From: a bacterium
GTDB taxonomy: Bacteria; Bacillota; Clostridia; Lachnospirales; Lachnospiraceae
NCBI GenBank assembly: GCA_023664305.1
Contig: JAMPFT010000025.1
Location: 1 to 43,970, forward strand
Length of the DNA: 43,970 bases
Direction: 5' to 3'
Position numbers and translations under genes: made by a program. Below, one piece after another: positions 145-39,910 of the stretch (position 1 is its first letter; each line of letters begins with the position of its first letter). Under the pieces are notes generated by a model that made no database searches, had not been told where the DNA came from, and saw nothing but the letters and a program-made list of their open reading frames with translations.

Positions 145-822
145 ATGCAGCTGGGAGGAATTGGCGACAGCCACGGCAGAGAAAGTCATCAGGTGACGGA
201 CTGTATGCATATTCATGAGCATTATAAAAAAGAACCGGGAGGCGCGGCAGCCTCTTCTTCGACGATGAGTTCTCAGGCGTTTCAGACGCTGAACCGGCAG
301 CAGGACGCCCAGATGTCGCTGTCCGCCTGGCTGGAGAAGCTGCTGGGAAGCGGGAAGAGTCTTTTGAAAGGGATCTGGGGCGTAAACGAGGTGAAAAACG
401 ACGCCGCCCTGACGGGAGACAAGACGGGCGCGGCGCAGATGATGGCTTCGCTTGACGAACGGGAAGGGCAGGATGCCGGGCGGGCAGGAACAAAAAGCGC
501 GTCTCTGCAGGAAAACCCTTACTTCCTGACGGTGGCTCCCGGCGAGCCCGAAAGGCATATGCCGCCGCTGCAGCGGATCCGAACCAAAGTAAGGAGCGTG
601 ACTGGGCAGCTTGCGGGGAAGCTGCCGGGCCGTTTTTTCCGGTTCCAGGCTAAAAATTCTTTTCAGGCCAGACCGGACAACAGGCCGAAGGAGGATCTGA
701 GAAAGCACAGCAAGTATAGAAAGGATGAATTGGAGATAGACTGTATTCTGACGGATGAGAGTTATCTGATGGATTCCTACGACCGAAAGGGAGAATACAG
801 CAGGCTGACCACGAAGAAATAA
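145..822 (+). CDS. Hypothetical protein, polar, no recognised domain
   Basis: I do not recognise this 225-residue protein. The ATG at 145 is preferred because GGGAGG lies about 7 nt upstream; the frame stays open upstream to a TTG at 58 that has no better ribosome binding site. The product is polar and basic, with a His-rich patch near residues 22-26 (HIHEH), an Ala/Ser-rich stretch, a central amphipathic part (SLSAWLEKLLGSGKSLLKG) and a charged C-terminus. I see no signal peptide, membrane segment or catalytic motif. It sits alone upstream of the metG T-box promoter, on the same strand. It may be a lineage-specific protein; no function is assigned. Confidence 0.55.
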   Translation: MQLGGIGDSHGRESHQVTDCMHIHEHYKKEPGGAAASSSTMSSQAFQTLNRQQDAQMSLSAWLEKLLGSGKSLLKGIWGVNEVKNDAALTGDKTGAAQMMASLDEREGQDAGRAGTKSASLQENPYFLTVAPGEPERHMPPLQRIRTKVRSVTGQLAGKLPGRFFRFQAKNSFQARPDNRPKEDLRKHSKYRKDELEIDCILTDESYLMDSYDRKGEYSRLTTKK

Positions 823-865
823 GGAACCGGGCCAAAACCGGCGGACGAAAAAGCGCGCAGCCTTA

Positions 866-895
866 TTGACAGGAGGGCGGGAAATGTGGTATCCT
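866..895 (+). promoter_or_regulatory. Sigma-A promoter for the T-box leader and metG
   Basis: The -35 box TTGACA is at 866-871 and the -10 box TATCCT at 890-895, an 18-bp spacer. TG at 887-888 makes an extended -10. Transcription would begin near 901, just ahead of T-box Stem I. Confidence 0.75.
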
Positions 896-900
896 GTTAG

Positions 901-1258
901 ACAAATCGAAAAAAGCGATGACGAAGAGAGTACGTCTGGGAATTTGTTTTACAGAGAATGTTCCGCGGCCGGGCAGAGTTTTTTCTGTCGGCGTCGATGC
1001 TGAGAGGAACAGGACAGGACAGACGGAAAATGGCTTCCGAGCAGCGCACCGAGCCGACGTAAGAGTGGCTGCGCGTCCGGGCTGTAAAGCCGGAGCGCAT
1101 TCTGCGGCGGTAAGGCTGCGACAGGTTCCGCCTGTTACAGCGGATAGGGTTACCGACCCGAAGAGCTCCGGCTTGCGAGAGTCGGAGGAAGAGAAGTGGT
1201 ACCGCGGGCTTACGGCTCGCCTTCTTGCGCAGAGTGCGCCTGAAGGCGGGCATTTTTT
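901..1258 (+). promoter_or_regulatory. T-box riboswitch, tRNA-Met specific, upstream of metG
   Basis: The diagnostic T-box sequence TGGTACCGCGG is at 1197-1207, directly before an intrinsic terminator. Upstream is a Stem I-like region with an AGAGAGTA segment near 925-940 and a pairing between GTTCC and GGAAC. An ATG triplet at 1030-1032 (in GGAAAATGGCTTCC) lies where the specifier codon is expected, matching the downstream methionyl-tRNA synthetase. Known mechanism: uncharged tRNA pairs with the specifier and with the T-box bulge, stabilising the antiterminator. The specifier position is read by eye; the T-box identity itself is solid. Confidence 0.9.
1218..1258 (+). terminator. T-box-controlled intrinsic terminator
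   Basis: The arms CGCCTTC (1218-1224) and GAAGGCG (1242-1248) enclose an inner GCGC/GCGC hairpin and are followed by six T at 1253-1258. It starts 11 nt after the T-box sequence, as expected for the competing terminator. Confidence 0.85.
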
Positions 1259-1260
1259 GC

Positions 1261-1500
1261 GCGAATGAGCAGAGGACGGAACTTTCCCGGGCGCAGGCCG
1301 TGCTTGCACGGACCGGGGCCCGGGGAAGTTTCGGACGAGCAACGCGAACGAGGAAGGCGAAGCCTTTCGAGTCTGCGCATTCGAATGAGCAGAGGACGGA
1401 ACTTTCCCGGGCGCAGGCCGTGCTTGCACGAGGCGGGGTCCGGGGAAGTTTCGGACGAGCAACGCGAACGAGGAAGGCGAAGCCTTCCGAGTCTGCTCAT
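1261..1500 (+). repeat. Two 120-bp palindromic tandem repeats in the metG leader
   Basis: Unit 1 (1261-1380) and unit 2 (1381-1500) are in register with an exact 120-bp period and differ at only a few positions. Each unit folds on itself: ACTTTCCCGGG pairs with CCCGGGGAAGT around an inner CCGTGC/GCACGG hairpin (unit 1), and AAGGC pairs with GCCTT around GAA. The junction near 1373-1392 is itself close to palindromic (CATTCGAATG core). A further perfect 8-bp stem, 1489-1496 with 1509-1516, sits before the metG ribosome binding site. The block lies between the T-box terminator and the start codon, so any read-through transcript carries it. Confidence 0.9.
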
Positions 1501-1550
1501 TCGCATCGGCAGACTCAGGAACACAAAACAAACAAAAAGGAGAGAAAGAC

Positions 1551-3542
1551 ATGCAGAACAAAGGACCTTACTATCTGACAACGGCCATCGCCTATACGTC
1601 CGGAAAGCCGCATATCGGCAACAATTACGAGATCGTGCTGGCGGACAGTATCGCGCGGTTCAAGCGGAAAGAGGGCTACGAGGTGTTTTTCCAGACCGGC
1701 ACCGACGAGCACGGCCAAAAGATCGAGCTGAAGGCCGAGGAGGCCGGGGTGACGCCCCAGGAGTATGTGGATAAGATCGCGGGAACTATACGCGATCTGT
1801 GCGATATGCTGAACGTTTCTTACGACAAATTTATCCGCACGACGGACGGGGACCATGTCAGACAGGTGCAGAAAATTTTCCGCAGATTTTACGAGCAGGG
1901 AGATATTTATAAGGGCGCTTACGAGGGAATGTACTGCACGCCCTGCGAATCCTTCTGGACGGAGAGCCAGCTGGTGGACGGGAAATGTCCGGACTGCGGC
2001 AGGGAGGTTAAGCCCGCGAAGGAGGAGGCGTATTTCTTCCGGATGAGCAAATACGCGGACAGACTGATTAGCCATATCAACGAGCATCCGGAGTTTATCC
2101 AGCCGGTGTCCCGCAAAAACGAGATGATGAATAATTTCCTGCTGCCCGGACTGCAGGATTTGTGCGTATCCAGAACCTCCTTCAAATGGGGGATCCCGGT
2201 GGACTTTGACGAAAAGCATGTGGTGTATGTGTGGCTGGACGCGCTGACCAACTATATCACCGGTATCGGGTACGATGCGGATGGAAAAAGCACGGAGCAG
2301 TATAAAAAGCTGTGGCCGGCGGATCTTCATCTGATCGGGAAGGATATCATCCGCTTCCATACGATTTACTGGCCCATTTTTCTGATGGCGCTGGGCGAGC
2401 CGCTGCCGAAGCAGGTTTTCGGCCATCCCTGGCTGATGATGAACGGCGGCAAGATGAGCAAGTCCAAGGGAAATATTATTTACGCGGACGACTGGGTTGA
2501 CTTTTTCGGCGTGGACGCCGTGCGGTATTACATGCTTCATGAGATGCCCTATGACAACGACGGCAACGCCACCTGGGAGCTGATCGCGGAGAGAACCAAT
2601 TCGGATCTGGCGAACACGCTGGGCAATCTGGTGAACCGTACCGTCTCCATGAGCAACAAATATTTCGGCGGCGTGGTGGCGGATAAAAAGATCACGCTGA
2701 CGGAGCAGGACGCCGCGGCGGACCGGGATCTGAAGCTGACGGCGATTGGCGCTTATACGAAGGTGGCGGGCAAGATGGAGGAGCTGCGGGTAGCGGACGC
2801 CCTGACAGAGATTTTTGCCGTCTTCAAGCGCTGCAATAAATATATCGACGAGACGGAGCCCTGGGTACTGGCGAAGGATGAGGCGAAGTCAGACCGCTTA
2901 GCCACCGTTCTTTACAATTTGGTGGAGGGAATCGTCATCGGCGCGTCCCTGTTGGAGCCCTTTATGCCGGAGACGGCGGGAAAAATTGCGGAGCAGCTGA
3001 ATACCTCCCTGCGGGAATTTGACACGCTGGGGACTTTTGGCCTCTATCCCGACGGGAACAGGGTGACGGATCAGCCGCAGATCCTGTTTGCAAGGCTGGA
3101 TATGAAAGAGGTGCAGAAAAAGGAGGAGGAGCTTGCGGCGGCCATGGCGGCGCTGACTGCGGAAGAGGAGAAGAAGGACGAAAACGACAGCAGTGTCATA
3201 GATATCGAGGATAAGCCGGAGATCACCTATGACGATTTCGCCGGGCTTCAGTTCCAGGTGGGAGAGATTATTTCCTGCGAGGCCGTTCCCAAGTCCAAAA
3301 AGCTGCTGTGCAGCCAGGTTCGAGTCGGGAGTAAAGTGAAGCAGATTGTCTCCGGTATCCGCAGCAGCTATACGCCGGAGGAGATGGTCGGCAAAAAGGT
3401 GATGGTGCTGGTGAACCTAAAGCCCGCGACGCTGGCGGGGGTGGTTTCCGAGGGAATGCTGCTCTGCGCCGAGGACGCAGAGGGGCGGCTGGCGCTGATG
3501 ACGCCGGACAGAGAGATGCCATCGGGTGCGGAAATTTGCTAA
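1551..3542 (+). CDS. metG: Methionyl-tRNA synthetase
   Basis: Charges tRNA-Met with methionine in the cytosol. The 663 residues show the class I signatures HIGN (residues 21-24) and KMSKS (301-305). A zinc knuckle is visible at Cys129/Cys132 and Cys146/Cys149. The anticodon-binding helical domain follows. The last 100 or so residues form the C-terminal tRNA-binding (OB-fold) domain found in dimeric bacterial MetRS, joined by an acidic, Lys/Glu-rich linker near residues 520-555. Length is normal for this form. AAGGAG precedes the ATG at a suitable distance. Expression is under the T-box upstream, with two 120-bp repeats in between. No truncation is seen. Confidence 0.98.
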   Translation: MQNKGPYYLTTAIAYTSGKPHIGNNYEIVLADSIARFKRKEGYEVFFQTGTDEHGQKIELKAEEAGVTPQEYVDKIAGTIRDLCDMLNVSYDKFIRTTDGDHVRQVQKIFRRFYEQGDIYKGAYEGMYCTPCESFWTESQLVDGKCPDCGREVKPAKEEAYFFRMSKYADRLISHINEHPEFIQPVSRKNEMMNNFLLPGLQDLCVSRTSFKWGIPVDFDEKHVVYVWLDALTNYITGIGYDADGKSTEQYKKLWPADLHLIGKDIIRFHTIYWPIFLMALGEPLPKQVFGHPWLMMNGGKMSKSKGNIIYADDWVDFFGVDAVRYYMLHEMPYDNDGNATWELIAERTNSDLANTLGNLVNRTVSMSNKYFGGVVADKKITLTEQDAAADRDLKLTAIGAYTKVAGKMEELRVADALTEIFAVFKRCNKYIDETEPWVLAKDEAKSDRLATVLYNLVEGIVIGASLLEPFMPETAGKIAEQLNTSLREFDTLGTFGLYPDGNRVTDQPQILFARLDMKEVQKKEEELAAAMAALTAEEEKKDENDSSVIDIEDKPEITYDDFAGLQFQVGEIISCEAVPKSKKLLCSQVRVGSKVKQIVSGIRSSYTPEEMVGKKVMVLVNLKPATLAGVVSEGMLLCAEDAEGRLALMTPDREMPSGAEIC

Positions 3543-6214: not shown

Positions 6215-7324
6215 ATGGCAAGTTTATCTTTGACAAATGTATGCAAGGTATATCCCAACGGCTTTGAGGCAGTTAAGGATTTCAACCTTCAGATCGCTGA
6301 CCAGGAGTTTATCATCTTCGTAGGTCCTTCCGGATGTGGTAAGTCCACCACTCTCCGTATGATCGCAGGTCTGGAAGACATTTCTTCCGGTGAACTGAAG
6401 ATCGGCGACAGAGTTGTAAACGACGTTGAGCCCAAGGACCGCGATATCGCGATGGTATTCCAGAACTACGCTCTGTATCCTCATATGTCCGTATATGATA
6501 ACATGGCATTCGGTCTGAAACTGAGAAAGGTTCCCAAGGACCAGATCGACAAGATGGTTAAGGAAGCAGCTAAGATTCTGGATCTGACTCCTTTGCTTGA
6601 CCGTAAGCCCAAGGCTCTGTCTGGTGGTCAGAGACAGCGTGTTGCTATGGGACGTGCAATCGTTCGTAATCCCAAGGTGTTCCTGATGGATGAGCCTCTT
6701 TCCAACCTGGATGCAAAGCTGCGTGTGCAGATGCGTATTGAGATCGCTAAGCTGCATCAGAGACTGGGCACCACCATCATCTACGTTACACATGACCAGA
6801 CAGAGGCTATGACCCTGGGTACAAGAATCGTCGTTATGAAGGACGGCGTTATCCAGCAGGTAGATACCCCCCAGAATCTGTATCAGAAGCCTTGCAACCT
6901 GTTCGTAGCAGGATTCATGGGATCTCCTCAGATGAACTTCCTGGATGCTACCGTAAAGGTTACCGGCAATGTTGCTAACCTGGAGATCGCAGGCAAGAGC
7001 ATTCCTCTTCCTCCCGCTAAGTCCAAGAAGGTAATCGACGGCGGATATGACGGAAAGGTTGTTACGTTTGGTATCCGTCCCGAGGATGTATATGATTCCG
7101 AGGCATTTACCTCTAATTCGCCCTGCGTATTCGATTCTACCGTAAAGGTTTACGAGCTGCTCGGCGCAGAAGTTTATCTGTACTTTGATCTGGAGGAGTT
7201 CCCGATCACTGCAAGGGTTGACTCCCGTACATCTTCCAGACCTGGCGACAGCATTAAGTTTGCATTCGATCTTGAGAAGATTCATGTATTCGATAAAGAG
7301 ACAGAGCAGATTATTACCAACTAA
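6215..7324 (+). CDS. ugpC: Multi-sugar ABC transporter ATP-binding protein (UgpC/MsmX type)
   Basis: The 369-residue ATPase that energises carbohydrate ABC importers at the inner membrane face. Walker A GPSGCGKST is at residues 37-45, signature LSGGQRQRV at 135-143, Walker B VFLMDEP at 155-161 and the H-loop in THDQTEAM near 190. The C-terminal third is the MalK-like TOBE regulatory domain. No permease or binding-protein genes adjoin it; in Firmicutes MsmX such a stand-alone ATPase serves several importers, which I infer here. Codon choice (many T/A third positions, strong GCT/GTA use) differs from the GC-rich neighbours and suggests very high expression. It ends in a strong terminator. The exact symbol (ugpC, msmX or msmK) is a matter of naming. 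Confidence 0.93.
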   Translation: MASLSLTNVCKVYPNGFEAVKDFNLQIADQEFIIFVGPSGCGKSTTLRMIAGLEDISSGELKIGDRVVNDVEPKDRDIAMVFQNYALYPHMSVYDNMAFGLKLRKVPKDQIDKMVKEAAKILDLTPLLDRKPKALSGGQRQRVAMGRAIVRNPKVFLMDEPLSNLDAKLRVQMRIEIAKLHQRLGTTIIYVTHDQTEAMTLGTRIVVMKDGVIQQVDTPQNLYQKPCNLFVAGFMGSPQMNFLDATVKVTGNVANLEIAGKSIPLPPAKSKKVIDGGYDGKVVTFGIRPEDVYDSEAFTSNSPCVFDSTVKVYELLGAEVYLYFDLEEFPITARVDSRTSSRPGDSIKFAFDLEKIHVFDKETEQIITN

Positions 7325-7338
7325 TAAAGTAACTGTGA

Positions 7339-7367
7339 GGGGGTGCTGGTGTCAGCACCCCCTTTTT
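7339..7367 (+). terminator. Strong intrinsic terminator after the ABC ATPase gene
   Basis: A perfect 10-bp stem, GGGGGTGCTG (7339-7348) with CAGCACCCCC (7353-7362), has a 4-nt loop and is followed by TTTTT. It isolates the ATPase gene as a single-gene unit. Confidence 0.95.
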
Positions 7368-7409
7368 CAGTAAAGAAAGATTTTGCAGTGCAATGTCCGG
7401 AATAATGCC

Positions 7410-7438
7410 TTGCGAAGGATAAAAAAATCAGGTATTAT
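7410..7438 (+). promoter_or_regulatory. Sigma-A promoter for the CdaR-type regulator
   Basis: The -35 box TTGCGA (7410-7415) and -10 box TATTAT (7433-7438) are 17 bp apart. The leader to 7519 contains a GC-rich stretch (GGGCCCGC) but no clear riboswitch. Confidence 0.75.
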
Positions 7439-7518
7439 GAATGTGGCGGGCGAGACCGGGCCCGCGGATAAAATGCCGATAAAAATGCCTGCCGGAGCGG
7501 GCAGATGGGAGTTGACGT

Positions 7519-8607
7519 ATGATATCAAGTCAGATAATTCAGACCAGTATCGATGAACTGAAAACAATTACAAAAGTGGATTTGTGTGTGTATGATCTGT
7601 CCGGAACCCTGATTGCGTCCACGACGAGTCAGATGGAGCTTAGCGGGGAGATTGTCAGCGGATTTGCAAATTCTCCCGCGGACAGTCAGGTGATCGGTAT
7701 CCATCACCTGATGAAGATTTTGGATGAAGGGGAACTGTTGTATGTCCTGGTGGCGAAGGGAACCAGCGATGACGTCTATATGGTAGGCAAGATTGCGGTA
7801 TGCCAGATTCAGAATCTGGCGGTGGCTTATAAGGAGCGGTTTGACAGAAACAACTTCTTCCAGAATCTGCTGCTGGATAATCTGCTGCTGGTGGATATTT
7901 ACAACAGAGCCAAAAAGCTTCACATTGAGGTGGCGGCTCCCAGAGCGGTATTTCTGGTAGAAACCGGACTGGAGAAGGACGGAATCGTGACGGAAGTATT
8001 GAAAAGTATGTTTTCCAGCCAGGCCGGGGATTACATTACTGCCGTGGATGAAAGCAGCGTGATCCTGATTAAGACTTTGGACGCGAGCAGCACCCATGAC
8101 GACCTGATGACGATCGCGGACACGATTGTAGCCATGATGAACGCGGAGGCTATGATGAATGTCAGGGTGTCCTTTGGTACGGTGGTGCCGGAGCTGAAGG
8201 ATGTGTCTAAGTCCTACAAAGAGGCGAAAATGGCCCTTGACGTGGGGAAAATTTTCTATGCGGAAAAGAATGTGGCGGCTTACAGCACGCTGGGGATCGG
8301 ACGCCTGATTTATCAGCTGCCCGTAAACTTATGCAAGATATTCATTGAGGAGATTTTTGGAGATAACGTGCCCAGCGATCTGGATGAGGAAACCCTGAAT
8401 ACGATTAACAAGTTTTTTGAAAACAATCTGAATGTGTCGGAGACCTCCAGACAGCTTTTTGTACACAGGAACACTTTGGTCTACAGGATTGAAAAGCTGC
8501 AGAAGAGCACGGGTCTTGATCTGCGCAACTTTGACGACGCGCTGACCTTTAAGATTGCGCTGATGGTCGTGAATTACATGAAGTATCTGGACAATAACGA
8601 TTACTAA
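7519..8607 (+). CDS. CdaR/PucR-family transcriptional regulator
   Basis: A 362-residue DNA-binding regulator. The N-terminal 130 residues resemble a sugar-diacid-recognition type sensor domain, beginning with an amphipathic helix and the VDLCVYDLSGTLIAST strand pair. A GGDEF-like middle region follows. The C-terminal HTH_30 domain (about residues 305-355) carries LNVSETSRQLFVHRNTLVYRIEKL, the standard recognition helix of this family. The start has GGGAG nearby. It sits directly after the multi-sugar ABC ATPase gene with its own promoter, so regulation of carbohydrate uptake is a reasonable inference; the effector is unknown. Confidence 0.88.
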   Translation: MISSQIIQTSIDELKTITKVDLCVYDLSGTLIASTTSQMELSGEIVSGFANSPADSQVIGIHHLMKILDEGELLYVLVAKGTSDDVYMVGKIAVCQIQNLAVAYKERFDRNNFFQNLLLDNLLLVDIYNRAKKLHIEVAAPRAVFLVETGLEKDGIVTEVLKSMFSSQAGDYITAVDESSVILIKTLDASSTHDDLMTIADTIVAMMNAEAMMNVRVSFGTVVPELKDVSKSYKEAKMALDVGKIFYAEKNVAAYSTLGIGRLIYQLPVNLCKIFIEEIFGDNVPSDLDEETLNTINKFFENNLNVSETSRQLFVHRNTLVYRIEKLQKSTGLDLRNFDDALTFKIALMVVNYMKYLDNNDY

Positions 8608-10967: not shown

Positions 10968-11112
10968 GCCGCATATTCAGGTATCACTCCACCCGGCTTC
11001 CTCACGGCACATGAGAGGTTCTACTTAGTGCTGCTTTGTTCCCAACCTGACACGGTTCGCAGATTCCCATTGCGTAAGACCGAATTTCAATATGATACCA
11101 TGAATATGCGGC
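10968..11112 (-). ncRNA. ffs: Signal recognition particle RNA (small bacterial type)
   Basis: The minus strand reads the conserved SRP domain IV core: GTGTCAGG, a short GGGAAC apical loop and AGCAGCACTAAG, near 11027-11064. The ends are defined by a long closing helix: the first 20 nt (from 11112) pair with the last 19 nt (to 10968), GCCGCATATTCA against TGAATATGCGGC, with one unpaired base. A near-perfect promoter lies just upstream at 11119-11147. The RNA binds Ffh in co-translational membrane targeting. The length, about 145 nt, suits a form without a full Alu domain. Confidence 0.9.
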
Positions 11113-18308: not shown

Positions 18309-19712
18309 ATGAGTATCAGGAAGAAATTGTTTGGCGACAGGGCATTTTACGCCATGGTTCTGGGAGTGGCGGTGCCGATCATCATTCAGAACGGCATCAC
18401 AAATTTTGTCAGCCTTCTGGATAATATCATGGTGGGCCGGGTGGGAACGGAGCAGATGTCCGGCATCGCCATCGTAAATCAGCTGTTGCTGGTGTTTAAT
18501 CTTGCAATTTTCGGCGCCATATCCGGCGCCGGTATTTTTGGCGCGCAGTTTTACGGATGCAGGGACCACAGGGGCGTGCGGCGGACCTTCCGCTTCAAGC
18601 TGTATCTCTGCGCGGTCATCGTGCTGGCAGGAGCAGTAATTCTGCTGCTCGGCGGGGACCGGCTGATCCTTCTGTATCTGCACGGGGAGGGCAACGACGC
18701 GGCGCTGGAGGCGACGCTTGGCTACGGCAGGCAGTATCTTCTGGTGATGCTTACGGGGCTTCTGCCCTTTGCGGTGGAGGAGATTTACGCCAGTACTCTG
18801 AGAGAGTGCGGAGAGACGACGATCCCAATGATCGCGGGGGTAGCGGCGGTATGCGTGAATCTGGCGCTGAACTGGCTGCTGATTTTCGGTAAATTCGGCT
18901 TTCCGAAGCTGGGAGTGGTGGGAGCGGCCCTTGCCACGGTGATTTCCAGATATGTACAGGCGGCGGTGATTATCCTGTGGACGCATACCCACACGGACAG
19001 GATGCCCTTTATCGTCGGGGCGTACAGGGAATGGAGGATTCCGGGTCAGCTGGCCGGTAACATCGCGCGAAAGGGGACGCCGCTGATGATCAACGAGATC
19101 CTCTGGGCGGCGGGGATGGCGGCTCTGAACCAGTGTTATTCCATGCGGGGACTGGATGCGGTGGCGGCCCTGAATATTTCCACTACCATATCCAACCTGT
19201 TTAATATCGTGTCGATGGCTATGGGCAGCGCAATCTCGATCATTGTGGGGCAGCTGCTGGGAGCCGGGGAGATGGAGGAGGCGAGGGATACGGACACGAA
19301 GCTGATCACCTTCTCGATAGCTGCCTGTCTGGCGCTGGGCGTGATACTGTTTTTGATTTCGCCGCTGTTCCCGATGATGTACAATACGTCGCAGACGGTC
19401 AGAGACATGGCGGCGGGGCTTTTGCGGGTGGCGGCGTGCTGTATGCCGATCTGGGCTTTTATGAACGCTACCTATTTTACTCTGCGAACCGGCGGCAAGA
19501 CCATCGTCACATTCCTGTTTGACAGTGTGTTCCTCTGGGCGGTGACAACACCCTTTGCCTTTTTGCTCAGCCGATTTACGACGCTTCCGATTATACCGCT
19601 CTATTTAAGCTGTCAGCTGTTGGACCTGATCAAGTGTGTGATCGGCTTTATTCTGGTAAAAAAGGGCGTCTGGATCAATAATATGGTGTCGGAGGATCCG
19701 GCGCAGGCGTGA
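18309..19712 (+). CDS. MATE family efflux transporter
   Basis: A 467-residue cation-coupled exporter with about 12 membrane segments in two homologous halves. The N-terminal VPIIIQNGITNFVSLLDNIMVGRVGTEQMSG is the standard MATE TM1 and loop signature. The start at 18309 follows GAAGGGA. It is downstream of malQ, separated by a 44-bp minisatellite, and 42 nt before rhaM on the same strand. Substrates may be drugs or metabolites; sequence does not decide. It is only distantly similar to the second MATE gene at 25259. Confidence 0.93.
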   Translation: MSIRKKLFGDRAFYAMVLGVAVPIIIQNGITNFVSLLDNIMVGRVGTEQMSGIAIVNQLLLVFNLAIFGAISGAGIFGAQFYGCRDHRGVRRTFRFKLYLCAVIVLAGAVILLLGGDRLILLYLHGEGNDAALEATLGYGRQYLLVMLTGLLPFAVEEIYASTLRECGETTIPMIAGVAAVCVNLALNWLLIFGKFGFPKLGVVGAALATVISRYVQAAVIILWTHTHTDRMPFIVGAYREWRIPGQLAGNIARKGTPLMINEILWAAGMAALNQCYSMRGLDAVAALNISTTISNLFNIVSMAMGSAISIIVGQLLGAGEMEEARDTDTKLITFSIAACLALGVILFLISPLFPMMYNTSQTVRDMAAGLLRVAACCMPIWAFMNATYFTLRTGGKTIVTFLFDSVFLWAVTTPFAFLLSRFTTLPIIPLYLSCQLLDLIKCVIGFILVKKGVWINNMVSEDPAQA

Positions 19713-23640: not shown

Positions 23641-25023
23641 TTATGCGTTCCCGGCAATCTGTCTTGCCACATATACGCCGCTGGCGGAGGCGTGGGAGAG
23701 GGAGTGAGTGATGCCGCTGCCGTCTCCTATGACGTACAGCCCCTCATATCTGGTCTGCAGGTTTTCGTCCAGTTCCACTTCCATGTTGTAGAATTTTACC
23801 TCCACGCCATACAGGAGCGTGTCGTCGTTTGCGGTTCCCGGGGCGATCTTATCCAGGGCGTAAAGCATTTCGATAATCCCGTCGAGAAGACGCTTGGGCA
23901 GTACCAGACTTAAATCGCCCGCGGTGGCGTTCAGCGTCGGGACGGTAAAGGATTCGTCGATACGCTTCTGGGTGCTCCTGCGCCCGCGGATCAGATCTCC
24001 GAAACGCTGGACGATGACGCCGCCTCCCAGCATATTGCTGAGCCGGGCAATGCTCTCCCCGTAACCGTTGGAATCCTTGAAGGGCTCCGAAAAGTGCTTT
24101 GCCACAAGCAGGGCGAAGTTCGTGTTCTCCGTGTGCCGCGCGGGGTCGTCATAGCTGTGGCCGTTTACCGTGACAATGCCGTTGGTGTTTTCGTTCACGA
24201 CCGCGCCCCTGGGGTTCATGCAGAAGGTACGCACCAGATCGCCGTATTTCTGGGTGCGGTAGACGATTTTACTCTCGTAAAGCTCATCCGTCAGATGGGA
24301 AAAAATTTCCGCGGGAAGCTCTACCCGGACGCCGATATCTACCCGGTTGGATTTGGTGGCAATCCCCATTTCCCGGCAGGTCTTTTCCATCCACTTGCTG
24401 CCGCTTCGGCCGACGGATATGATGCAGCGGCGTCCGGTATATTCCCCGCCCTGACATTTGATCCGATAATAGTTTCCGCCGCCGTCCTCTTGGGCGGATA
24501 CGGATTCCGCCGGAGCGTCGAAGAAAAAATCTACCTTATCCTTCAGATATGCATAGAGATTTTTCAGAACCACATAATTGACGTCCGTTCCCAGATGGCG
24601 CACGGAGGCGTCCAGCAGATGCAGATCGTTCTGCATACAGAGCTTTTTGAACTTTGTCCCTGCTGTGCTGTAGAGCTTCGTCCCTTCTCCGCCGTAGGTC
24701 ATGTTGATCCCGTCCACATAGCGCATCAGGTCAAGAGCCTGCTTTTTCCCGATGTATTTGTACAGGGTGCCGCCGAAATCGTTGGTGATATTGTATTTCC
24801 CGTCGGAGAAAGCGCCTGCGCCGCCGAAACCGCTCATGATAGAGCAGCTTTTACATTTGACGCAGCTTTTCACCTGTTCGCCGTCGATCGGACAGCGGCG
24901 CTTTTCCAGCGAATGTCCCCCTTCCAGAACGGCGATCTTAAGGCCGGCGTCAAGCTTTGTCAGTTCATAGGCCGAAAAGATTCCTCCCGGCCCCGCGCCG
25001 ATAATTATCACGTCATACATCAT
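23641..25023 (-). CDS. FAD-dependent dehydrogenase, COG2509-like
   Basis: A 460-residue flavoprotein of the 'NAD(P)/FAD-dependent oxidoreductase' group. The dinucleotide motif GAGPGG is at residues 9-14. A CPIDGEQ..CVKCKSC segment is followed by GFGGAGAFSDGKYN, typical of this group. The C-terminal YVIGDGSGITHSLSHASASGVYVA is the second FAD contact. The first of two adjacent ATG codons (25023) is used, with GGAGG 7 nt upstream; a longer frame to 25326 would run through the riboswitch and is rejected. The reaction is not established for the family. The leader contains a purine-riboswitch-like element, implying control by a purine or related compound. Confidence 0.87.
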   Translation of the reverse strand: MMYDVIIIGAGPGGIFSAYELTKLDAGLKIAVLEGGHSLEKRRCPIDGEQVKSCVKCKSCSIMSGFGGAGAFSDGKYNITNDFGGTLYKYIGKKQALDLMRYVDGINMTYGGEGTKLYSTAGTKFKKLCMQNDLHLLDASVRHLGTDVNYVVLKNLYAYLKDKVDFFFDAPAESVSAQEDGGGNYYRIKCQGGEYTGRRCIISVGRSGSKWMEKTCREMGIATKSNRVDIGVRVELPAEIFSHLTDELYESKIVYRTQKYGDLVRTFCMNPRGAVVNENTNGIVTVNGHSYDDPARHTENTNFALLVAKHFSEPFKDSNGYGESIARLSNMLGGGVIVQRFGDLIRGRRSTQKRIDESFTVPTLNATAGDLSLVLPKRLLDGIIEMLYALDKIAPGTANDDTLLYGVEVKFYNMEVELDENLQTRYEGLYVIGDGSGITHSLSHASASGVYVARQIAGNA

Positions 25024-25040
25024 AAGCACACCTCCATAAT

Positions 25041-25094
25041 AAAAAAGTAAATGAATGGCTACAGATTTTGAAAAAGCAGTAGTCAACCATTTAC
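25041..25094 (-). terminator. Riboswitch terminator that overlaps the aptamer
   Basis: The segment 25079-25094 (L3, P3 3' strand and J3/1 of the aptamer) pairs with 25047-25062 at 14 of 16 positions, including one wobble, with a 16-nt loop, followed by six T at 25041-25046. It uses core aptamer bases, so aptamer folding and termination are mutually exclusive. This predicts ligand-induced expression. Confidence 0.8.
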
Positions 25095-25138
25095 GGCGGT
25101 TGGTAGAAACGCTCATCCCTATCGTGAGCTCTCTTTTA
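25071..25138 (-). promoter_or_regulatory. Purine-riboswitch-like aptamer with guanine-type specificity base
   Basis: The minus strand reads GTTTCTACC, a P3 stem CAACCG/TGGTTG with loop CCGTAAA, then GACTA: the J2/3, L3 and J3/1 consensus of the purine riboswitch. P2 is GCTCA/TGAGC with loop GATAGGG, whose final GG can kiss CC of L3. The C of GACTA corresponds to the guanine-specifying position. However, the J1/2 consensus TATAA is absent just before P2 (AAGAGA instead), and P1 is short or irregular. Confidence 0.75.
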
Positions 25139-25166
25139 CTATAGCATATCCGGGAAAGGGTGACAA
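25138..25166 (-). promoter_or_regulatory. Promoter of the riboswitch-FAD dehydrogenase unit
   Basis: Minus-strand -35 TTGTCA (25161-25166) and extended -10 TGCTATAGT (hexamer 25138-25143), 17-bp spacer. The predicted start near 25131 falls very close to the aptamer P1/P2, leaving little room for a normal P1. Confidence 0.65.
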
Positions 25167-25191
25167 GGAAAAATCCGTTTTTGTTACTTTC

Positions 25192-25220
25192 TTGACAGGG
25201 GCGGCGGAATGGGATATAGT
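25192..25220 (+). promoter_or_regulatory. Promoter of the second MATE gene
   Basis: TTGACA (25192-25197) and TATAGT (25215-25220), 17-bp spacer, divergent from the riboswitch promoter. Confidence 0.85.
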
Positions 25221-25258
25221 TAGGCATATGCCGCTGTGGGCGCGGCGCGGAGGTTACT

Positions 25259-26668
25259 ATGGAGAGGATAAAAAATTTATTTCGGGCTACGGATATGACG
25301 GTGGGAGCGCCATGGAAGCAGATCATGCTTTTTACGCTGCCGATGCTGGTGGGAAATATTGCCCAGCAGCTTTACAATACGGTGGACAGCATTGTCGTAG
25401 GGCGTTATGTGGGAGATAACGCGTTGGCGGCGGTGGGATCCGCGGGGCCGATTGTCAATCTGCTGCTTGTCTTTTTCATCGGTATTTCCACCGGAGCCGG
25501 GATCATGGTGTCCCAGTATTTCGGAGCGAGAGACAGGGAAAACCTTGCGCTGACCATCGGAAACTGTATCGTGGCCTGCGGCGTGGCATCCCTTTTGATT
25601 ATGGCGGTGGGGTCTTTTGCCAGCGGACCGCTGCTTCGTCTGCTGAACACGCCGGATTCTATCTTTGAATGGTGCCGGTCTTATCTGAACATTATGGTCT
25701 GGGGTATGGCAGGTATGGCCTTTTACAATATTCTGAGCGGTATCCTGCGGGGGCTGGGGGATTCTTTCTCGGCGCTTTTGTATCTTTTAGTGTCTACCGT
25801 TTTGAATATTGTGCTGGATGTCTGGTTTGTGGCAGGATTTCAGATGGGAGTCCCGGGCGTGGCGCTGGCTACGGTGATCGCTCAGGGAATTTCCGCGCTG
25901 CTCTGCCTTTGGAGACTGTTCCGTATGAAAGACCTGTATGAACTGAAGGCAGGGCATTTTAAGCCTCGCGGGGAGAGCATGGGAACGATTGTCCGTCTGG
26001 GCATCCCTTCCGGTATCACGCAGGCAATCTTTTCCATGGCAATGATTGTGGTACAGTCCCTGACCAACAGCTTCGGGGAAATGTTTATCGCCGCCAATGT
26101 GATTGTCATGCGCGTGGACGGTTTTGCCATGATGCCGAACTTTTCCTTCGGCACGGCCATGACCACCTACGCGGGGCAGAACGTGGGCGCAAAACGTTAT
26201 GACCGCGTGACGGAGGGCGCCAGGCAGGGTACGCTGATGGCGGTGGGAACCTCGGCGGTGATCACGGGAATTATCCTGATTTTCGGCAAATATCTGATGG
26301 GGATTTTCACCGAAACGACGGAGCTTGTAGACTTGAGCATGAGCATGATGCGGATTATCGCGCTGGGGTATCTTGCCATGGGTGTGACGCAGTCCCTGTC
26401 CGGCGTGATGCGGGGAGCGGGAGATACCATGACGCCTATGTGGATTTCGATCTTTACGACGATTGTGGTGCGGATACCGGTAGCCTACGGTATCGCTTAT
26501 CTGACCCGTTCGCCGGAGTATCCGATCGGCAGACAGGAATGTATCTTTATCTCGCTGCTCTGCAGCTGGCTTTTGGGCGCGTTTGCCACCGTGATCATGT
26601 ATCGTGTGGGCGGCTGGAAGAAAAAAGCGCTCGGCGGGGCCGCGGCGGGAAATACATATGACGAGTAA
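25259..26668 (+). CDS. MATE family efflux transporter
   Basis: A 469-residue exporter with about 12 membrane segments. The N-terminal LPMLVGNIAQQLYNTVDSIVVGRYVGDNALAAVG is the standard MATE signature, of the NorM/DinF-like clostridial type. GGAGG precedes the ATG. It is transcribed from its own promoter, divergently from the riboswitch-controlled FAD dehydrogenase, and converges with the glycosyltransferase gene. The substrate is unknown. Confidence 0.94.
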   Translation: MERIKNLFRATDMTVGAPWKQIMLFTLPMLVGNIAQQLYNTVDSIVVGRYVGDNALAAVGSAGPIVNLLLVFFIGISTGAGIMVSQYFGARDRENLALTIGNCIVACGVASLLIMAVGSFASGPLLRLLNTPDSIFEWCRSYLNIMVWGMAGMAFYNILSGILRGLGDSFSALLYLLVSTVLNIVLDVWFVAGFQMGVPGVALATVIAQGISALLCLWRLFRMKDLYELKAGHFKPRGESMGTIVRLGIPSGITQAIFSMAMIVVQSLTNSFGEMFIAANVIVMRVDGFAMMPNFSFGTAMTTYAGQNVGAKRYDRVTEGARQGTLMAVGTSAVITGIILIFGKYLMGIFTETTELVDLSMSMMRIIALGYLAMGVTQSLSGVMRGAGDTMTPMWISIFTTIVVRIPVAYGIAYLTRSPEYPIGRQECIFISLLCSWLLGAFATVIMYRVGGWKKKALGGAAAGNTYDE

Positions 26669-39600: not shown

Positions 39601-39853
39601 CGGCAGGAAACCGAACGGCTGTAATGCGGCAGACGGTTTCGTGCAAAGCGCGTCAGGCTCAAGCGCCTGTCGCAAAACGGCCGCAAGGCCGATGCCGAAG
39701 ACAGCAGGTCCGGGAGCGTTTCGGATATTTCAAGGGCAGCCACGCTGCGCGAAAGAAATGTGTGAATTGGCTCGGGGTAAGTGAAAACGCCTGCCGAGGA
39801 AAGAGTTTTTACCGAGACTTTTTACCCTCCTGTCTTCAGGAGGGTTTTCTTTT
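39601..39853 (+). promoter_or_regulatory. L10 ribosomal protein leader
   Basis: Contains the conserved L10(L12)4-binding features: GACAGCAGGT near 39699-39709 and the downstream partner CGCCTGCCGAGG near 39788-39799, as in Firmicutes L10 leaders. It is followed by an attenuator hairpin. Known role: L10 binding represses rplJL. Confidence 0.85.
39824..39853 (+). terminator. Attenuator of the L10 leader
   Basis: ACCCTCCTG (39824-39832) pairs with CAGGAGGGT (39837-39845), loop 4 nt, followed by TTTTCTTTT. Confidence 0.85.
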
Positions 39854-39910
39854 GAAAACTCCTTTCGGCGGGGGAGAGATCCCCATAAAATTCTATAAGG
39901 AGGTAAAAAA

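Follow-up and report, generated by a model that had tools for sequence, protein, structure and literature searches.

A truncated, probably ligand-blind remnant of a guanine-type riboswitch ahead of an uncharacterised FAD-dependent protein, and its intact relatives

Does the leader of an uncharacterised flavoprotein gene carry a working purine riboswitch? The question is raised by a window of 43,970 nucleotides, the whole stretch of DNA analysed here. For its minus strand, the first-pass annotation had proposed a guanine-type ON switch with an unusual J1/2, either as a variant with a different ligand or as a decaying aptamer. The J2/3, L3, J3/1, L2 and terminator that it had described were all found in the sequence where it had placed them. 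The analysis favours, with a probability of about 0.8, a truncated remnant, most likely blind to ligand, of a transcriptional ON riboswitch of guanine type that belongs to the FAD-dependent protein. The features are, in the direction of transcription:

25138-25166 (-): promoter with -35 TTGTCA (25166-25161), a 17-nt spacer and an extended -10, TG-C-TATAGT (hexamer 25143-25138)
25131-25132 (-): transcription start predicted from the promoter position, 6-7 nt past the -10 box and 1-2 nt ahead of P2
25130-25131 (-): deletion junction, at which the window lacks the J1/2 TATAA and P1 5' strand present in the sister locus L003 (pairwise alignment with L003; breakpoint ambiguous by a few nt)
25111-25129 (-): P2, GCTCA/TGAGC (sequence, fold)
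25123-25117 (-): L2, GATAGGG (sequence)
25110-25102 (-): J2/3, GTTTCTACC, the last C of which also opens P3 (sequence, Rfam alignment)
25084-25102 (-): P3 (sequence, Rfam alignment, fold)
25096-25090 (-): L3, CCGTAAA (sequence, Rfam alignment)
25084-25080 (-): J3/1, GACTA, with C at 25082 in the ligand-pairing C74 position (sequence, Rfam alignment)
25041-25094 (-): terminator with a hairpin at 25094-25047, its 5' arm taken from L3, the P3 3' strand and J3/1, and a T tract at 25046-25041
25031-25035 (-): Shine-Dalgarno sequence GGAGG (sequence)
23641-25020 (-): gene of the FAD-dependent protein, 459 amino acids, with ATG at 25020 or 25023

The likeness to the purine riboswitch was borne out by the Rfam Purine model (RF00167). 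The whole model aligned to the minus strand (25150-25060), with a score of 34.8 bits that is below the gathering cut-off of 37 bits. RF00167 was the best match (E 4.8e-4) when 4227 Rfam families were run against the 351 nt of 24950-25300 with permissive filters. The element is also the sole reported Purine match in its own 3.58 Mb genome (E 1.2e-3; RF00167 alone, 150 of 263 first-look candidates scored). Rfam at gathering level over the whole window gave no match at the riboswitch site. Other Rfam matches in the window are an L10 leader (39677-39859, plus strand, 48.0 bits) and a small bacterial SRP RNA (10987-11086, minus strand, 71.3 bits). With R1, a covariance model trained on 16 purine aptamers found in relatives, with the leaders of L003 and L016 among them, the element scores 40.6 bits. 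It keeps the conserved bases of J2/3, L3 and J3/1, including C74, U51 and U47. The RF00167 alignment shows non-pairs in P1 and a gap in place of UAUAA; the P1 5' strand and J1/2, with U22, are absent. In the canonical register, a C.A mismatch closes L2. The element is more than a chance resemblance, and the missing J1/2 is real. By its score and by the absence of P1 and J1/2, the window copy itself falls outside RF00167; it is most likely the remnant of a member.

The promoter occupies the place of the absent J1/2 and P1 5' strand. The near-consensus -10 noticed at the P1 site at first pass belongs to this promoter, and the sister locus has the same layout (TTGTAA-17-TACAAT with TG). Consensus promoters on both strands numbered two in the window region and one in the L003 region. 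Shuffling leads one to expect 0.7 and 0.6 sites, respectively, so the weight rests on the conservation of the promoter. With a start predicted at 25131-25132 and P2 running from 25129 or 25130, neither P1 nor J1/2 would be transcribed. A transcript start inside P2, which the annotation had held to be incompatible with its switch, is close to this prediction of 1-2 nt before P2.

The sister locus L003 (genome G014) explains the gap. It is an orthologue from the same genus, with 89% protein identity and an intact aptamer of 52.0 bits that ends about 50 nt upstream of the gene. Both leaders share promoter, T tract and Shine-Dalgarno sequence. In the leader alignment, the window is short of 20-23 nt, TATAA among them, in the interval from the -10 box to P2. 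Both leaders have an identical 42-nt stretch that begins at the end of L2 and runs slightly beyond J3/1. The genes share 82.4% DNA identity (1106/1342) and are identical at 84 of 187 four-fold sites. The identity of the core against such divergence suggests selection on it during most of the period after the two lineages parted; the deletion probably happened recently. It is known from one genome and may be an assembly error. A third orthologue of the genus, L004 (87%), stands nearest to L003 in the protein tree, and its upstream sequence, scanned with R1, gave no aptamer. One genus thus holds intact (L003), truncated (window) and lost (L004) copies.

Purine matches with E of at most 1 were found in 10 of 61 genomes (the window's own and 60 relatives) with filters stricter than in the own-genome search. 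With the same stricter filters, 2 of 37 genomes of the window's genus had a match, namely its own and G014. A DNA search with the leader in 138 genomes of the genus, its own among them, turned up a single further leader, that of G014 (83% over 90 nt); four more matches are fragments of 20-30 nt. The usual guanine OFF switches may be absent from the genus: the own genome has no Purine match above the cut-off, and among the 37 genomes only that of G014 was found.

The 42-nt identity over saturated synonymous divergence means that the truncated RNA could still have some role. P2, P3 and the terminator might work without any ligand, either as a fixed attenuator or as a stabiliser of the 5' end. 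This would account for the conserved core and agrees with the retained terminator layout and T tract. It is judged unlikely: the terminator hairpin is weaker than that of the sister (-11.1 versus -25.4 kcal/mol), the pair closing L2 is broken, and a recent deletion accounts for the conservation equally well. An intact leader, L071, has a terminator of -11.7 kcal/mol, so that of the window need not be broken. A simple consensus scan, which takes loops of 3-8 nt only, lists no minus-strand terminator in the window or L003 region.

The remnant has intact relatives. An R1 scan placed an aptamer directly upstream of the flavoprotein gene in 21 of 264 orthologue sources, the window included and some sources being cut by contig ends. 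The yields were 5/95 (window included), 2/28, 6/100, 6/11 and, at class level, 2/30. The 111 regions of the third and fourth sets (100 + 11) are those among the matches listed that had no locus yet, with two partial matches omitted. The class-level sources are the best 30 of 180 genomes with a match; two of them repeat earlier genomes, without matches, and other genomes may overlap too. The scanned sources do not include the partial loci L017 and L018, and weak R1 matches (L157, 13.9 bits; L153, 12.9 bits) were not counted. An R1 aptamer among the first 95 sources, in L098, precedes a different gene. All 20 leaders other than the window pass the RF00167 gathering threshold (38.6-72.3 bits). 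They and the window represent seven families of the order (f1, f2, f8, f11, f14, f17 and f24), two further families of the class (f87 and f99), an Oscillospiraceae MAG (L064) and a Clostridia MAG (L071).

A tree was made of 135 proteins, 19 of them from loci with the switch (class-level loci and switch-free loci of the 111 regions left out). Switch presence there takes 9 changes, whereas labels shuffled 200 times need 18.1 on average and never fewer than 16. Presence is clustered, yet the switch was gained or lost repeatedly. It is dispensable, since 243 of the 264 sources, some cut by contig ends, show no such switch. A plasmid search gave no match. A recurrent design without P1 was also considered and rejected. 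The motif scan of 345 upstream entries (with the 111 regions counted on both strands) gave 20 matches versus a mean of 4.5 in shuffles. These are 18 known leaders, the window and L184, which is chance-like.

The homologous leaders were compared in an alignment (A4) of 19 rows, 18 of them distinct, which includes the window and is without L299 and L303. All three stems covary. In A4, which was fitted to R1 and so leans towards the model, 89.6% of cells are paired and 15 of 20 pairs show double changes. The covariation score is 0.497 versus 0.219 when shuffled (0/500 shuffles as high), and slid versions reach at most 0.133. A weaker measure is the number of additional pair types (32 versus 28.9; 33/500 shuffles as high). 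J1/2 TATA is kept in all 18 other rows, and the window is the sole row without it.

These rows bear on a working variant riboswitch, which would be made from a longer transcript with P1 TAGTA/TACTG and J1/2 AAAGAGA and would bind a different ligand. A P1 of 5 bp can indeed be drawn by eye, and the core identical to L003 over saturated synonymous sites speaks for function. The proposed P1 shares sequence with the -10 box and would be missing from any RNA started at this promoter, and the consensus scan found no second minus-strand promoter in 24950-25300. U22 and the J1/2 adenines, kept as TATA in the other rows, are gone, and a plain deletion is evident against the sister. A working variant is therefore very unlikely, somewhat more so than a ligand-independent role. 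The idea that the altered J1/2 forms a pocket for a different ligand was not supported, and the decaying aptamer, the other proposal made at first pass, fits the deletion best. Resemblance by chance, without riboswitch ancestry, can draw on the score under the Rfam cut-off. The genome-wide E of 1.2e-3 and the 20 other leaders before orthologues speak against it, and the 52-bit aptamer at the same place in L003 already refutes it.

The C of CTA (C74) is present in all 19 rows of A4 and in L299 and L303, which places the leaders in the guanine rather than the adenine class, as the annotation had read from GACTA. The flavoprotein leaders in A4 also keep U51 and a normal J2/3, with neither the J2-3 insertion of xanthine-II and guanine-II nor U51G. 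The presence of C74, U51, U47 and U22, bases whose roles are partly described in PMC9295807, points to guanine or hypoxanthine as the likely ligand of the intact leaders. Their core is that of an ordinary guanine riboswitch, apart from J3/1 insertions in some. The J3/1 insertions comprise 3 nt in L016, L260, L261, L263 and L265 and 1 nt in L258 and L266. The inserted forms read G-TAGG-CTA or G-TA-CTA versus GACTA. They occur in three families with a normal J2/3 and are possibly a ligand variant. In L264 (351-434), an extra hairpin stands in place of L2 and probably abolishes the usual kissing between L2 and L3, yet this leader retains both the aptamer and the ON terminator.

The direction of control can be predicted from the terminators. 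A clear terminator is present in 14 of the 21 flavoprotein leaders, the window included, and in 12 of these the 5' arm shares 17-32 nt with the aptamer. The other two are without ON overlap (L172, 4 nt; L135, none). Seven leaders have no real terminator: L016, L258, L260, L261, L263, L265 and L266. Hairpins of -2.5 kcal/mol in L261 and L263 were not counted. Except for L016, the distance of these seven to the start codon is 18-29 nt, which suggests translational control. Fifteen purine leaders that precede other genes served as controls, and 13 of them have a terminator of -7 kcal/mol or better (L047, with -5.0 kcal/mol, was dropped; L035 gave none). Control leaders were cut at 170 nt and flavoprotein leaders at the gene start. 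An aptamer overlap of at least 15 nt occurred in 2 of the 13 control terminators (L036 and L037). The terminator of L098 overlaps its aptamer by 8 nt. Re-use of the aptamer by 12 of 14 terminators versus 2 of 13 predicts ligand-induced ON switches.

Control L037 is an adenine-type purine riboswitch (GATTA; 1501-1600, minus strand) with an ON-type terminator of -32.5 kcal/mol. About 240 nt separate it from an adenosine deaminase gene downstream (278-1270, minus strand); the adenine type and this gene together fit ON logic.

The ON switch on the flavoprotein gene, as first proposed, is thus upheld by descent, through 20 intact leaders and their terminators, and not for the window copy, which is most likely ligand-blind. 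In the intact relatives, the nascent leader would fold P1, P2 and P3 around a purine. The bound aptamer would withhold P3, J3/1 and the P1 3' strand from the terminator, and the flavoprotein gene would be read. Without ligand, the terminator would form. In the window, the deletion would have fused the promoter to P2, and the RNA would begin at P2 without P1 or J1/2. The gene would then be expressed constitutively, at a level that depends on how often a weakened terminator is read through.

The product of the regulated gene has the domains PF21688 FAD-depend_C (47.9 bits, cut-off 27) and Pyr_redox_2; 'COG2509-like' is a label of the first-pass annotation. The best solved relative by sequence, VP0956 (3nlc), is uncharacterised. 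The flavoprotein is present in 19 of 19 neighbourhoods (22 kb for the window, about 9-13 kb for 16 others, about 4 kb for L064 and L071). After merging of the f24, f2 and f11 loci into 14 groups, the other gene families are each confined to one or two groups. Families in two groups each are an ABC-type ATPase, the Fe-only hydrogenase large subunit (f24 and L282), ABC_trans_CmpB, MATE (window and L288, one gene from the flavoprotein), a chemotaxis receptor and Rid/L-PSP. The lack of a widely shared neighbour suggests that the switch travels with the flavoprotein gene. A conserved operon that would reveal the substrate was dropped for the same reason. A cluster by L283 (842, 266 and 153 amino acids), taken by size for xanthine dehydrogenase, encodes a glycyl-radical enzyme, its activase and EutP. 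Tentatively, and at less than even odds, the PF21688 family may be a purine-induced enzyme that acts directly on the purine base or its product, in an as yet unassigned redox step of purine metabolism, with a guanine-type ON riboswitch inducing it across many lineages of the class.

The window carries two MATE-like transporter genes (18309-19712 and 25259-26668, both plus strand); the MATE gene of L288 lies at 6328-7698 (plus strand). A divergent promoter for the MATE gene at 25259-26668, TTGACA-17-TATAGT (11/12; 25192-25220, plus strand), stands back to back with the flavoprotein promoter. Upstream of it on the plus strand, the P2 palindrome (25111-25129) followed by TCTCTTTT scored as terminator-like, probably by chance.

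Compared with known systems, the window shares P2/L2, J2/3, P3/L3 and J3/1 with C74 with the guanine class RF00167 (xpt type), and its intact relatives score above the Rfam cut-off. In contrast to that class, the window lacks the P1 5' strand and J1/2, and the relatives seem to be ON switches of a flavoprotein gene. The adenine riboswitch of pbuE is an ON switch with a terminator made from P3, J3/1 and P1 of the aptamer. The flavoprotein leaders build theirs alike; they differ by C74 instead of U74 and by the gene. The 8-oxoguanine riboswitch is another guanine-like ON switch, to our knowledge confined to Paenibacillaceae, before 8-oxoguanine deaminase. The flavoprotein leaders resemble it in type and in their predicted ON logic and differ in host group and gene. 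The accessible part of PMC9295807 only mentions the 8-oxoguanine riboswitch. It describes guanine-II and xanthine-II from Paenibacillus, Propionispira and Clostridium species as variants that share the three-way junction and are predicted to be ON switches (for xanthine-II, in some examples); both carry insertions in J2-3 and J3-1, and xanthine-II has U51G as well. As far as this part goes, the flavoprotein leaders are similar in junction and predicted ON logic and differ by U51, a normal J2/3 and J3/1 insertions in some leaders only. In C. difficile, all four guanine riboswitches are of the OFF type and control guaA, xpt and two permeases, according to the accessible part of PMC11477304. The flavoprotein gene is not among the purine riboswitches named in the accessible part of PMC3766115. 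No report linking a purine or guanine riboswitch to the flavoprotein gene was found in a literature search that fell short of most subscription papers. The group behind the window copy is a new gene association, with predicted ON logic, for a known aptamer.

The window copy appears to be a riboswitch in decay, in a genus that also holds the intact form and its complete loss. The interest lies in the intact relatives rather than in the broken copy. A purine signal, probably switching the gene on, is a regulatory clue to an uncharacterised protein family and makes both the ligand and the substrate of the enzyme directly testable.
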